Below are positions 7,059 through 12,264 of a stretch of 64,000 bases of DNA, in pieces (positions within the stretch are counted from its first letter, which is position 1; every line of letters starts with the position of its first letter). The notes below the pieces were generated by a model. It saw only the letters and a list, made by a program, of their open reading frames with translations. It searched no databases and was not told the DNA's origin. Both the position numbers and the translations under genes were made by a program. The stretch is from Bacillota bacterium (GTDB taxonomy: Bacteria > Bacillota > Clostridia > Caldicoprobacterales > DTU083). The stretch is taken from NCBI GenBank assembly GCA_029549985.1, contig JAKPIB010000021.1, forward strand, positions 1-64,000, read 5' to 3'.

Positions 7059-8537
7059 TCAGATCACTGCCATCAGGATGAAGTTCAGGATGAACAGCAG
7101 GGTAGCTACCCAAAGGACTATGTTGATATCCTTGAGCTGGCGTTTGAAAGCCTTAACCAGGCAGTAGAAGATGAATCCTGTAGCTATACCATAGGAGATG
7201 CTGTAGCACAGAGCCATGAATATTCCTGCAAAGAATGCCGGTATAGCTTCGTTCAGGTCTTCCCAGTTGATCTCCTTGAAGGCAGACATCATCATTACAC
7301 CGACAACGATCAGGGCAGGAGCAGTAGCAGCAGCGGGAATGGCGCTAACATAGGGTGCCAGGAATGCGCTTGCGGCAAACAGTACTGCAACGACAACGCT
7401 GGTGAGACCTGTACGTCCGCCGGCAGCGATACCTGCTGCGCTTTCAACATAGGTCGTTGTATTGGATGTACCGAACAAAGCGCCTATTGATGTGGCTGTA
7501 GCATCAGCAAACAAGGCTTTGTCCATCTTGGACTTGAAACCTGAGCTGGACTCCAGGGCTCTCTCGTCTTCGAGGGAGAATATTCCGGTTTTACGGCCAG
7601 TGCCGATGAATGTACCAATGGTGTCGAATGTGTCGGACAAGCTGAATGCGAATATGGTCATCAAGACAAGGGGCAGCTTGCTCACATCGCTGAAGAGCGA
7701 CTGGATACCGTCCTTGCCCAGGGCTGCCAGGAAAGTCTCAGGAAGCTGTGACACTGCGGTGGCAAATGACATGGTCTTTGTCGAACCCTCAACAGCCTCT
7801 ATAACGAGGGGCTTTGTCAAACCAAGGGGTATACCTGCTAAAGCAGTTACTACGATACCGATAAGTATTGCACCTCTGACCTTCAGTACCAGCAACACAA
7901 CGGTCAGCACAAGGCCGAATATGGCCAGGAGGACTGACGGATTGTTGAAAGAAACAAGAGCCGGTACCGCTGCAGAGCTTGCAACTACTGTATGGGAATT
8001 GGCTATGTCTGTCAGCGTAGAGTTTGCGATCTGTTCACTGGCACCTATCAGGGAGTATGTGCCCGGATCGGAGGTGAAGCTCAGAAGACCGGCACTCTTT
8101 ACACCGATGTAGGCGATGAATATGCCGATACCGCCGCCAATAGCATGCTGCAGGCTTTCAGGTATGGCCTTTATTATCAACTTTCTGATTTTAGTAACTG
8201 TAATCAAAATATTAACAAGACCGCAGATGAACACCATTGCCAATGCCTGCTGCCATGTAAACTTCAGGGCAAAGCATACGGTGAACACAAAGAAAGCATT
8301 AAGTCCCATGCCAGGTGCCTGAGCATAGGGCACATTGGCAAAAAGGCCCATTACCAGGGTTCCTATGATCGAAGCTATAATCGTTGCGAGGAACACTGCT
8401 CCCCAGGGCATACCTGCCTGTGACAGCATGTTTGGATTTACCACGATAATATAAGCCATCGCAAAGAACGTGGTAAGACCGGCGACGATTTCGGTACGCA
8501 CGTTGGTACCATTCTCTTTGAGTTTAAAAAAACCCAT
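7059..8537 (-). CDS. NCS2-family purine (hypoxanthine/guanine-type) permease
   Basis: A 492-residue polytopic membrane protein of the nucleobase:cation symporter-2 family, AzgA/PbuG branch, which imports purine bases with protons. The family signature is seen in GLTTFFAMAYIIVVNPNML near the N-terminus and APGMGLNAFF at about residue 73-82; hydrophobic segments cover nearly the whole chain. The ATG at 8537 follows AAGGGGGATT. It lies 94 bases downstream of cobA on the same strand with no strong terminator between them, only a GCTTAAG/CTTAAGC inverted repeat without a T run. A guanine-class riboswitch lies upstream of cobA on this strand and may control it. Adenine versus guanine/hypoxanthine preference cannot be read here. 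Confidence 0.93.
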   Translation of the reverse strand: MGFFKLKENGTNVRTEIVAGLTTFFAMAYIIVVNPNMLSQAGMPWGAVFLATIIASIIGTLVMGLFANVPYAQAPGMGLNAFFVFTVCFALKFTWQQALAMVFICGLVNILITVTKIRKLIIKAIPESLQHAIGGGIGIFIAYIGVKSAGLLSFTSDPGTYSLIGASEQIANSTLTDIANSHTVVASSAAVPALVSFNNPSVLLAIFGLVLTVVLLVLKVRGAILIGIVVTALAGIPLGLTKPLVIEAVEGSTKTMSFATAVSQLPETFLAALGKDGIQSLFSDVSKLPLVLMTIFAFSLSDTFDTIGTFIGTGRKTGIFSLEDERALESSSGFKSKMDKALFADATATSIGALFGTSNTTTYVESAAGIAAGGRTGLTSVVVAVLFAASAFLAPYVSAIPAAATAPALIVVGVMMMSAFKEINWEDLNEAIPAFFAGIFMALCYSISYGIATGFIFYCLVKAFKRQLKDINIVLWVATLLFILNFILMAVI

Positions 8538-8631: not shown

Positions 8632-9162
8632 TTACTTCTCGATGCCGTCCCTGGCAGATACTCCTATATCGAAATAGTGCTTTATTGACCGCATTTCGGT
8701 TATCAAGTGGGCACGCTGGGCTATTTTGTCCGGCAGTACTCTGCCTGTCAGCACTATCTCCATCCCCTCCGGCCTGGCATCAAGTATTTCCAATACTCTT
8801 TCAAGAGATACTAGGCCATTTTCTATGGTTCCGAGGATCTCATCCAGTATCAGTACATCCCATTCCTGATCCCGGAGCATATCATCAAGCCTGTCCAACT
8901 CTTCGTTTATCTTTCGTTTAAGCTCATCCTTCTCAGCCTGATCCATGCTGAAGAAAAATTTACCAGTCTCCCCGAACCTAACGACCGAAAATTGGGGAGC
9001 CAGCTTTTTTATCGATTCAAGCTCGCCGGTATGAGTGCCCTTAAGAAATTGGATCATCAAAACCTTGAGTCCGCGGCCTGCCGCCCGCATGCCGAGTCCC
9101 AGCGCCGCAGTGGTTTTTCCCTTTCCGTCCCCGGTATATACCTGTATATAGCCTTTTTCCAT
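8632..9162 (-). CDS. cobA: Cob(I)yrinic acid a,c-diamide adenosyltransferase
   Basis: A 176-residue CobA/BtuR-family enzyme that transfers the adenosyl group of ATP to reduced corrinoids to form adenosylcobalamin-type cofactors. The P-loop GDGKGKTTAALG lies at about residues 11-22 and a DEILGTI Walker-B-like stretch near 105. The ATG at 9162 follows GGAGGGATACGC. No other corrin biosynthesis gene is nearby, so it may serve corrinoid salvage. It is followed by the purine permease in a likely two-gene unit. Confidence 0.93.
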   Translation of the reverse strand: MEKGYIQVYTGDGKGKTTAALGLGMRAAGRGLKVLMIQFLKGTHTGELESIKKLAPQFSVVRFGETGKFFFSMDQAEKDELKRKINEELDRLDDMLRDQEWDVLILDEILGTIENGLVSLERVLEILDARPEGMEIVLTGRVLPDKIAQRAHLITEMRSIKHYFDIGVSARDGIEK

Positions 9163-9267: not shown

Positions 9268-9459
9268 GTGAGACCTACGCACTATGAGGAGGATGACTTC
9301 CTGGTCATAGATGCTTCATTGGACCATTCGATATTTCCTAAAGGTATAACCCATGGGATCGATGCACTTGCGACAGGCGTATACGACAACTACAGCTTTG
9401 TTGATGGCTATGCCGATTATCCTGAGATCGACTATAAGGAATTTATCGATCATCCCTGA
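9268..9459 (+). CDS. Small acidic protein of unknown function
   Basis: A 63-residue frame starting with GTG at 9268, seven bases after a near-perfect GGAGGTGAT ribosome site (9257-9264), the main reason to believe it is translated. The protein is strongly acidic and rich in Asp, Tyr and Phe, with repeated short motifs such as YADYPEIDYKEF near the C-terminus. It has no signal peptide, cysteines or membrane segment. I do not recognise the family. It is divergent from cobA and convergent with the guanine riboswitch RNA. Read-through of that RNA toward cobA would run antisense across this entire gene. Confidence 0.6.
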   Translation: MRPTHYEEDDFLVIDASLDHSIFPKGITHGIDALATGVYDNYSFVDGYADYPEIDYKEFIDHP

Positions 9460-9481
9460 AGCGAAAATATGCCAACTAAGC

Positions 9482-9519
9482 AAAAAAGCACATGATTCAT
9501 ACCAGAGTGAACCATGTGC
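9482..9519 (-). terminator. Terminator of the guanine riboswitch RNA
   Basis: On the minus strand a 12-bp stem (9508-9519 with 9488-9499, eight-base loop) is followed by six T (9482-9487). One position pairs as G-U only in minus-strand RNA and would be an A-C mismatch on the plus strand, which supports the orientation. Its left arm and loop can instead pair with the 3' side of aptamer helix P1. Confidence 0.85.
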
Positions 9520-9536
9520 CCTTTCATCTTATCCAG

Positions 9537-9557
9537 GATAAGACACCATGTCTTATC
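9537..9557 (-). repeat. Hairpin within the riboswitch expression region
   Basis: A perfect nine-bp inverted repeat, GATAAGACA (9537-9545) and TGTCTTATC (9549-9557), loop CCA. A third copy of the arm (CTTATCC, 9528-9534) allows an alternative short hairpin with GGATAAG at 9536-9542, so two structures exclude each other. Confidence 0.6.
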
Positions 9558-9574
9558 AAAAAACAGATGACCAC

Positions 9575-9596
9575 CCGGCCTTTTCATAAAGGCCGG
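9575..9596 (-). repeat. GC-rich hairpin directly after the guanine aptamer
   Basis: CCGGCCTTT (9575-9583) pairs with AAAGGCCGG (9588-9596) around TCAT. On the minus strand the next T run (9558-9563) is 11 bases away, so this is a poor terminator by itself. Confidence 0.6.
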
Positions 9597-9605
9597 CCTA
9601 ATCCA

Positions 9606-9672
9606 CTCATAGTCAGGCAGTTATCGGCCGCCTGGTAGAAACTCCCGAACCATATTATCGGCATTATATGAG
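9606..9672 (-). ncRNA. Purine riboswitch aptamer, guanine class
   Basis: The minus strand carries the purine aptamer: P1 CTCATA (9672-9667) pairs with TATGAG (9611-9606), and the conserved core blocks ATAATG, GTTTCTACC and CTGACTATG are present, together with the two loops expected to kiss. The specificity position in GACTATG is C (9612), as in guanine/hypoxanthine aptamers; adenine aptamers have GATTATG. It has its own promoter, and no gene follows directly on this strand. The next minus-strand genes are cobA (about 440 bases on) and the purine permease, the usual kind of target. Confidence 0.92.
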
Positions 9673-9693
9673 CTCAATATTCATTTCACATTT

Positions 9694-9722
9694 ATAGTAA
9701 CAAAGGCTAAGAAAAATGTCAA
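9694..9722 (-). promoter_or_regulatory. Promoter of the guanine riboswitch RNA
   Basis: On the minus strand TTGACA (9722-9717), a 17-base spacer and TACTAT (9699-9694). Initiation is expected near 9687, about 15 bases before the aptamer. It lies just downstream of the guaA stop, so the RNA is independent of guaA transcription. Confidence 0.8.
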
Positions 9723-9772
9723 TAAATAATTGAACATTTTTTCTATATGTGGTTATAATGTTCGGAAATTTA

Positions 9773-11062
9773 CTACTCCCATTCAATAGTAGCCGGGGGC
9801 TTGGTGGTTATGTCATAAACGACCCTGTTTACGTGCCTGACCTCATTTACTATCCTGCCGGATACCCTGGCCAGTACATCACAAGGGATCCTTGCCCAGT
9901 CTGCTGTCATACCGTCTATGCTATAGATAGCACGCAAGGCAACAGTATAGTCGTATGTGCGCCTGTCCTCCCTCACGCCTGTACTCCGCATATCTGTGAG
10001 GACGGCGAAATACTGCCATATCTCACTGTTCAAGCCCGCCTTTTCGATCTCTTCTCTGAATATGGCATCAGCAGCTCTCAGTATCTCCAGCTTTTCCTCA
10101 GTCACTTCCCCAATAGTGCGTACTGCCAGACCGGGGCCGGGGAAGGGCTGTCTTTTAACCAGCTTATCCGGCATGCCCAGCACTTTACCGACGATGCGTA
10201 CTTCATCCTTGAACAGGTCCCTCAAGGGCTCTATAATGCCCGAAAAATCGATATGCTCCGGCAACCCTCCAACATTGTGATGGCTTTTGACCAGGGCTGC
10301 ACTACCTACCCCGCTCTCTATGACATCCGGGTATATCGTGCCCTGGACCAGGTAGTCAACCTTGCCTAGTTGTCTTGCTTCCTCTTCGAAAACCCTGATA
10401 AACTCCTCGCCGATTATTTTTCTTTTGCTTTCAGGGTCAGCTACTCCTTTCAGCCTTTCCAGAAACCTCTTTCGTGCATCCACCTTGATAAGGTTGATAT
10501 CGAACTGTTCTCTGAAAACCTTTTCGACCTGTTCACTTTCATCCTTACGTAAAAGCCCGTGGTCAACAAATATGCATGTCAGCTGCTTCCCTACCGCCCT
10601 ATGTACCAGGAGGGCTGACACGGAGCTGTCGACTCCGCCTGAGAGGGCGCAGAGTACCTTTTTGTCTCCTATCCTCCCTCTCAGATCTGATATGCACTCC
10701 TCCACGAAGCTGGACATGGTCCAGTCACCTCGGCATTTGCATTCATCAAACAGAAAATCCCTCAGGACACTGCTTTCCCGGCATCCGACCGCCTCATCTG
10801 CTGTCACGCTTCCGCTTCTCAGGTCCAGCACAGGGGTGCCCAGCTGCTGTATTTGCTTTATGTACTCTTTGTCACTGATAATATCTGTTTCTGGTGATCC
10901 TCCGGTCAGGATTATGCCCTTGGGATCTTTTGCCTTTACAGCATCTACCGGAACGCTGCATGGCAGCACTTCACAGTACACATTTGCTTCTCGCACCCTA
11001 CGCGGTATCAGATGGTTGGGCTGCCCGCCGAAATCCAGTATAACGATCGACTCATGCTTCAT
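9773..11062 (-). CDS. guaA: GMP synthase with a truncated, inactive-looking glutaminase domain
   Basis: The C-terminal two thirds is a normal GuaA synthetase: P-loop LSGGVDSS at 140-147, followed by the conserved ATP pyrophosphatase and GMP-synthase dimerisation regions, ending in the family-typical KPPATIEWE. It aminates XMP to GMP using ATP. The N-terminal class-I glutamine amidotransferase domain is reduced to about 105 residues instead of about 190. It begins with the usual ILDFGGQ and TGG blocks, but the nucleophile motif GICYG is replaced by LDLRSG (80-84), and the segment with HGD and the FHPEV His/Glu is absent. Total length is 429 against about 510 normally. The frame is uninterrupted and has a good AGGAGG site. 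Predicted to use free ammonia or a separate glutaminase partner. Confidence 0.9.
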
Positions 11063-11139: not shown

Positions 11140-12264
11140 TCAACCCAGAGCTTTTGCTGTCTCTCTGAGCTGCTCGCGTATCTTCAGTCTTTGTGGGCAT
11201 TTTTCTTCACATATGCCGCACTCTATGCATTCCTCGGCCTTTTTCCCCTTCAGCCAGTCATTAGTACCTATTCTGCTGTATTCCTGACGGGCATACTCTG
11301 TAAGGCCGTAAACCCTGTGATAGTTCATGAGGCGGAAATTCAGAGGTATGTTCACCTCATTGGGGCAGGGCATGCAGTAGTTGCAGCCCGTGCAGTACAG
11401 TTCTGCAAGTCGCCTGTTCTCCTCCATGGCCTCATTTATCATCGCCACTTCCTCAGCAGAAAGCTGGGTTTCGTTGGAAGCAGTCCTTGCATTCTCTTCA
11501 ACCATTTCAATGCTGCTCATTCCTGACAAGGCTACACAGACTCCTGGGTTTGCAAGCACAAACCTCAGGGCTATCTCTGCGCTGCTCTTTACTTTGCCCT
11601 TCAGCAAGCCCTTTATGACATCCGATGGGGCACCCAGGCGTCCGCCGCCTACGGGGCCCATGATGACCACCCCTAGCCCCTTTTCCTTGGCGTAGGCTAT
11701 TCCTGCTTCATTACTTCTATCAAGCAGGTTGTACTGGCACAGTACCGACTCGAACACACCTGTATCGATCAGCTTTAATAGGTTCTGGGGATCGTCATGG
11801 AAGGAGAAGGATATATGCTTGATCAGGCCCTCTTCCTTGGCCTTGATCGCTGCGCTCAAGGGGCCGTCCGGTACATCTATGCTCTCCTCAAAGGTTTTTA
11901 GGTTGATACCCCAGAAGTGATAGAAATCGATATAATCCACATCCAGCTTCTTCAATGACCTTTCAAGCCGTGCCCTGTAATGCTCGCCGGATGCGTCCTC
12001 GATCGGGTTCTTGGTCGAAAGATACACCTTGTCTCTCCAACCCTTTAGTGCCTGTCCGACGATTATCTCGCTCTCGCCGTTGCAATAGCCCGGAGCTGTA
12101 TCGATGTAATTTACACCGAGCTCAAATGCCCTATGGATGATACGGATGCTTTCATCATAGTCGAAAACGTCCTTATCGCCCACCTTTTTCTGAGGCAGCC
12201 GCATAGCTCCGAAGCCCAGAGCTGAAACCTTTATGCCTGTTTTCCCAAACTCTCTGTATTGCAC
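11140..12264 (-). CDS. Aldo/keto reductase with C-terminal 4Fe-4S region
   Basis: A 374-residue protein. Residues 1-280 are an aldo/keto reductase barrel with the catalytic IDTAPGYCNGE (D55, Y60), a lysine in YLSTKNP near 88 and a histidine in YHFWG near 117. The C-terminus adds two cysteine clusters, CTGCNYCMPCP (about 291-301) and CIECGICEEKCPQ (about 346-358), the pattern of ferredoxin-like iron-sulphur binding seen in anaerobe reductases. The natural substrate is unknown. It starts 11 bases after the guaB stop, so the two are probably cotranscribed. The ribosome site before ATG 12264 is weak, consistent with translational coupling. Confidence 0.92.
   Translation of the reverse strand: MQYREFGKTGIKVSALGFGAMRLPQKKVGDKDVFDYDESIRIIHRAFELGVNYIDTAPGYCNGESEIIVGQALKGWRDKVYLSTKNPIEDASGEHYRARLERSLKKLDVDYIDFYHFWGINLKTFEESIDVPDGPLSAAIKAKEEGLIKHISFSFHDDPQNLLKLIDTGVFESVLCQYNLLDRSNEAGIAYAKEKGLGVVIMGPVGGGRLGAPSDVIKGLLKGKVKSSAEIALRFVLANPGVCVALSGMSSIEMVEENARTASNETQLSAEEVAMINEAMEENRRLAELYCTGCNYCMPCPNEVNIPLNFRLMNYHRVYGLTEYARQEYSRIGTNDWLKGKKAEECIECGICEEKCPQRLKIREQLRETAKALG

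Follow-up and report, generated by a model that had tools for sequence, protein, structure and literature searches.

Guanine riboswitches of B. subtilis are found at pur, xpt-pbuX, pbuG and yxjA. In C. difficile the AzgA permeases are guanine riboswitch targets, and a cytosine at position 74 of the aptamer is the rule for the guanine class (PMC11477304). Two further systems are close to the present locus in their layout. The vitamin B12 riboswitch rli39/AspocR of Listeria follows one gene and is convergent with the gene after it, and its read-through RNA is antisense to pocR (PMC7154746). In the S. aureus noncontiguous operon menE-menC-MW1733-ytkD, same-strand units share a transcript across an opposite-strand gene (PMC7154746).

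The leader described here lies in a window (the whole analysed stretch) of 64,000 nucleotides from a Clostridia genome, G000. With the guanine riboswitches of purE operons and purine permeases it shares the aptamer class, a predicted OFF-switch by intrinsic termination, the coupling to a PurR box and, putatively, a permease as target. Unlike these, it has no gene immediately downstream, its original operon is gone and its putative target lies behind a convergent gene. The likeness to rli39 is one of geometry only, i.e. the riboswitch has one gene upstream of it and a convergent gene ahead of it, and read-through RNA would be antisense to the latter; here, however, the ligand is guanine, the transcript would continue towards a same-strand purine permease and the arrangement arose by operon deletion. 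By its layout the locus would, like the S. aureus operon, have a shared transcript across an interspersed opposite-strand gene; here only a riboswitch leader stands upstream of that gene. The unusual part is the history and the wiring of the leader, which was orphaned by deletion, kept under selection and probably retargeted from synthesis to import. No direct precedent for a riboswitch left by gene loss was found in open-access papers, which is weak evidence.

Architecture of the leader

The elements of the leader, in the order of transcription, are as follows.

9732-9764, minus strand: paired (inverted) PurBox, CGAACATT-N18-AATGTTC, putative PurR operator (motif search)
9694-9722, minus strand: sigma-70 type promoter TTGACA-17-TACTAT with extended TG (sequence scan; hexamers identical in the congener)
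9590-9691, minus strand: guanine riboswitch aptamer (RF00167 match; core from P1 to P1 about 9674-9608)
9599-9608, minus strand: antiterminator 5' arm GAGUGGAUUA, shared in part with the 3' strand of P1 (seen in the minimum-energy fold when the transcript is truncated)
9575-9596, minus strand: platform hairpin 1, CCGGCCUUU-AUGA-AAAGGCCGG (folding)
9537-9557, minus strand: platform hairpin 2, GAUAAGACA-UGG-UGUCUUAUC (folding; stem kept and loop altered in the congener)
9505-9514, minus strand: antiterminator 3' arm UGGUUCACUC, inside the terminator stem and loop (folding, comparison of leaders)
9482-9519, minus strand: intrinsic terminator with a 12-pair stem, an 8-base loop and six U (folding; stem-loop 9519-9488, TTTTTT 9487-9482)

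Judged by its sequence, the leader RNA genuinely belongs to the guanine riboswitch family. A sequence-only reading of the window had called the aptamer canonical and guanine-class, which is borne out by the RF00167 covariance model: the aptamer sequence and three-way junction match over the full length (model positions 1-102 of 102) with 80.4 bits, as compared to a gathering score of 37 (E 8e-13). The ligand-specificity position is C (GCCUGACUAUGAG), and the aptamer is therefore guanine-type; in the Rfam alignment this cytosine, at position 74, falls in GACUAUGAG of the J3/1 strand. The same reading had noted a consensus promoter (9722-9694), and two hairpins followed by a strong terminator, which are recovered by folding at 9596-9575, 9557-9537 and 9519-9482.

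The perfect pattern CGAACATT-N14-22-AAYGTTC has a sole match in the 2.1 Mb window genome, namely the PurBox of the leader, and the pattern read backwards as a control gave zero matches. The congener, G001, likewise has one perfect paired PurBox, upstream of the leader promoter. A PurR_N protein gene is kept in both species, and similar PurBoxes stand upstream of the pur leaders of most relatives.

The 3' platform is far more stable than shuffled sequences (z -7.8). The antiterminator pairing GAGTGGA/TTCACTC proposed earlier was found and extends to a helix of 10 pairs in the window species, 9608-9599 with 9514-9505. When the nascent RNA is cut just before the 3' arm of the terminator, the antiterminator is the unconstrained minimum-energy fold, and the congener gives (nearly) the same fold with nine antiterminator pairs of GAGUGAAUUG. 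Forcing P1 in the nascent RNA costs 6.0 and 7.6 kcal/mol in the two species, an amount that we judge guanine binding able to pay; in the full-length RNA the terminator is favoured. In both species the folding thus yields a mutually exclusive antiterminator and terminator that are coupled to P1, and this predicted anatomy, shown by folding only, is that of a canonical OFF-switch. When guanine is bound, P1 would hold the GAG of its 3' strand, the terminator would form and an RNA of ~205 bases would result. When guanine is absent, GAGUGGAUUA would pair with UGGUUCACUC, the terminator would be blocked and the polymerase would continue. A consensus terminator scan missed the leader terminator at 9482-9519, presumably because its stem runs into the U tract.

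The core of the antiterminator helix is common to seven other leaders. The covariation in relatives that had been named as a check did not appear: across nine family leaders the core is conserved with single-sided changes only, double-sided covariation is absent and the shuffle control was uninformative. Shifting the partner by one base lowers the pairing from 81% to 46% or less, a comparison that is biased in that the helix was chosen from the same sequences. The outer GAG/CUC pairs on the P1 side are complete in the window genus alone.

At 9557-9527 of the minus strand the window species also has a GATAAGA-TCTTATC-GATAAGA repeat that can form two mutually exclusive hairpins; the second is lost in the congener. 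The alternative partner of hairpin 2 (GATAAGA, about 9532) was considered as a switch element and was dropped because it is not kept in the congener.

Origin and conservation of the leader

A leader with a homologous AUGAUUCAC...GAAUCAU terminator precedes purE in six relatives (G002-G007). These leaders are of similar length, so the platform of about 90 bases is not unusually long, as had been thought. In G002-G006 the operon is readable as purE-(C)-F-M-N-H-D with a convergent gene of 63 aa at its end; purN of G005 was not called as an open frame. The pur genes were named by recognised sequence resemblance, together with Pfam matches for purE, purH, purD and AIRS. The gene next to the convergent one is cobA in G002-G005, and a permease follows in G002, G003 and G006, where the orthologue has its own promoter and aptamer.

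In the two genomes that represent the window genus, G000 and G001, the operon is gone and the stop codon of the convergent gene is about 20 bases past the leader terminator. The junction is short:

9460-9481, strand not applicable: deletion scar (relatives have about 6-7.5 kb here, from purE to purD plus the terminator of the convergent gene)

Neither species has an AICARFT (purH) gene or an AIRS-domain gene anywhere in its genome, and no convincing GARS (purD) was found in either, the only matches being weak ones of 24.6 to 27.3 bits in other frames. A purE-type AIRC is absent from the whole G000 genome; G001 encodes a single divergent protein with an AIRC domain (258 aa), and this may be something other than PurE. 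Both genomes are draft assemblies, with a completeness of 97% and 91%, and their absences are mutually consistent. Since the operon is missing at the syntenic spot and these pur genes are absent genome-wide, the comparison shows a former purE-operon leader that was orphaned by deletion. The deletion occurred in the ancestor of the genus; it began just past the leader terminator and took the operon as far as the end of purD, and more. Upstream of the leader most relatives have genes other than guaA, and by this comparison the adjacency to guaA is derived.

A further relative, the single-contig genome G009, lost purH independently of the window genus. Its aptamer (L033 8628-8727 onward) is fused straight to a 3' fragment of purD with no terminator, and its permease keeps an aptamer of its own.

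The variability between the two species of the genus is distributed unevenly. In each of six genes, 34 to 41% of the four-fold degenerate sites differ (322/879, i.e. 37%, overall). The aptamer core is identical at all 67 positions, for which our arithmetic gives a chance probability of about 6e-14 at the four-fold rate. The promoter has 2 differences in 29 positions, both in the spacer, and the hairpin 1 region (9564-9596) has 2 in 33; the hairpin-2 region has 15 in 46, where the two sequences are aligned partly out of register. The two substitutions in the antiterminator arm, G-U to A-U and A-U to G-U, are such that pairing can be kept. As the deletion is common to both species, parsimony dates this conservation after the loss of the operon. 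The comparison shows a leader that is not decaying, its promoter, PurR operator, aptamer, antiterminator and terminator being kept under selection as judged from these substitutions. A leader that has not decayed and is under strong selection implies a new or secondary target.

Neighbouring genes and the putative target

The genes around the leader are the following.

9773-11062, minus strand: guaA, directly upstream of the leader (gene call)
9268-9459, plus strand: convergent 63-aa gene, conserved, with no assigned family (present in 8/13 family genomes)
8632-9162, minus strand: cobA, corrinoid adenosyltransferase, the first same-strand gene past the leader (PF02572, E 6e-59)
7059-8537, minus strand: NCS2/AzgA-like purine permease, proposed main target (PF00860, E 1e-44)

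The statement that no same-strand gene follows for over 300 bases is correct as to distance (320 bases, from 9482 to cobA at 9162), but the gap is not empty, as it holds the conserved convergent gene. A regulated purine gene directly downstream, which is the usual context of the aptamer family and not a requirement for it, is not present, i.e. cobA comes next and then the permease. An opposite-strand gene between same-strand units, as in a noncontiguous operon, is present, the 63-aa gene lying between the leader and cobA. The 63-aa protein is acidic, has 22 invariant alignment columns and gave no match in Pfam and NCBIfam searches. In relatives the gene is preceded by a block (G-N-ATA, about 18 bases, CAAACTA) that resembles a forespore sigma-F/G promoter, and both species of the genus have sigma-G.

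Some features of the surroundings deserve mention in their own right. In both species the guaA product (429 aa) is missing about 80 residues of the glutamine amidotransferase domain, among them the region that usually carries the nucleophile Cys (...PVLDLRSG...); the shortened GuaA may use free ammonia or need a separate glutaminase subunit. A ferredoxin-domain aldo-keto reductase (AKR) is found between guaB and guaA at 11140-12264 (minus strand), again in both species. The second guanine-type aptamer of G000 forms a separate unit on contig C52 (L002 1501-1603), where it precedes a gene resembling adenine deaminase and a paralogue of the permease.

In relatives the permease has a TTGAC(A/T)-17 promoter plus an aptamer. 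As the gap between cobA and the permease is only about 95 bases in the window genus, both elements have been lost here. A minus-strand scan from 9482 to cobA found no consensus promoter and no other strong terminator, and between 9482 and the permease there is no consensus promoter except one weak site (9/12) inside cobA. The relatives that were checked have no clear sigma-70 promoter between purD and cobA, only single weak 9/12 sites at or inside the cobA start, and their hairpin past purD is terminator-like only on the strand of the convergent gene; therefore read-through from the pur operon into cobA may be ancestral.

The reading that we favour, and consider rather probable, is that the orphaned leader still works as an ordinary guanine OFF-switch, and that read-through across the convergent gene has probably given it a new target in cobA and the permease. 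The read-through transcript would cross the 63-aa gene and reach cobA and the purine permease, and the leader, together with PurR, would be the current control of this pair. The earlier suggestion of these two genes as a plausible target thus stands up as plausible. Against it, the cobA start is 320 bases past the terminator and beyond an opposite-strand gene; the stretch that separates the small gene from cobA may contain a promoter departing from the sigma-70 consensus (conserved TTTATACTT), and a weak hairpin at 8598-8581 could act as an attenuator before the permease.

Alternative readings and significance

The exact geometry of rli39 (PMC7154746) raises the question of whether read-through mainly serves to silence the convergent gene, i.e. 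whether the riboswitch controls an antisense RNA in the manner of rli39/pocR. The 63-aa gene is conserved and falls inside the read-through RNA. However, this geometry is inherited, since the gene already opposes the end of the pur operon in relatives; it is without known purine link, and its forespore-like promoter block suggests that it is perhaps expressed in other cells. We consider such a role unlikely. It is also quite improbable that the leader is a 3'-UTR element or terminator of the guaB-AKR-guaA mRNA, through which guanine would tune the 3' end or the stability of the transcript for GMP synthesis. GMP is made by guaBA, no terminator was found between the guaA stop and the leader, and the PurBox starts within about 10 bases of that stop codon; yet a pure 3'-UTR element could do without a promoter and a PurR operator, both of which the leader has kept, and the position of the leader next to guaA is derived.

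A free-standing transcript with its own promoter and terminator could also be an orphan small RNA, the terminated product of ~205 bases acting in trans on other mRNAs. This is very unlikely: conservation is concentrated on the parts of a cis-acting switch, whereas the hairpin-2 region and the non-switching loops diverge freely, and this reading has neither positive support nor a known target. We find it hardly credible that the leader is a non-functional relic persisting by chance. Its origin by deletion is clear, and the separate pur deletion in G009 did leave an aptamer fused to a purD fragment, but an unchanged aptamer core amid 37% neutral divergence, identical promoter hexamers, a kept PurBox and pairing-preserving antiterminator changes argue against it.

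We return to a functional OFF-switch that was probably retargeted. The most likely course is that the deletion moved it from purine synthesis to purine import, with cobA and the permease as the putative target, the organism being a predicted purine auxotroph; a salvage enzyme of the HGPRTase family is kept in both species. A more far-reaching version, to which we give a low probability, is that a new noncontiguous transcription unit captured the leader, PurR control included, as its dual sensor, and that the read-through RNA would also silence a spore gene. If true, purine scarcity would be linked to the sporulation programme as well as to import. The locus also serves as a caution that comparative synteny, and not a trans-acting role, may account for 'orphan' riboswitches. 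In other words, it is a natural experiment on the fate of a riboswitch once its operon is deleted, and it would be a concrete case of riboswitch retargeting by deletion.
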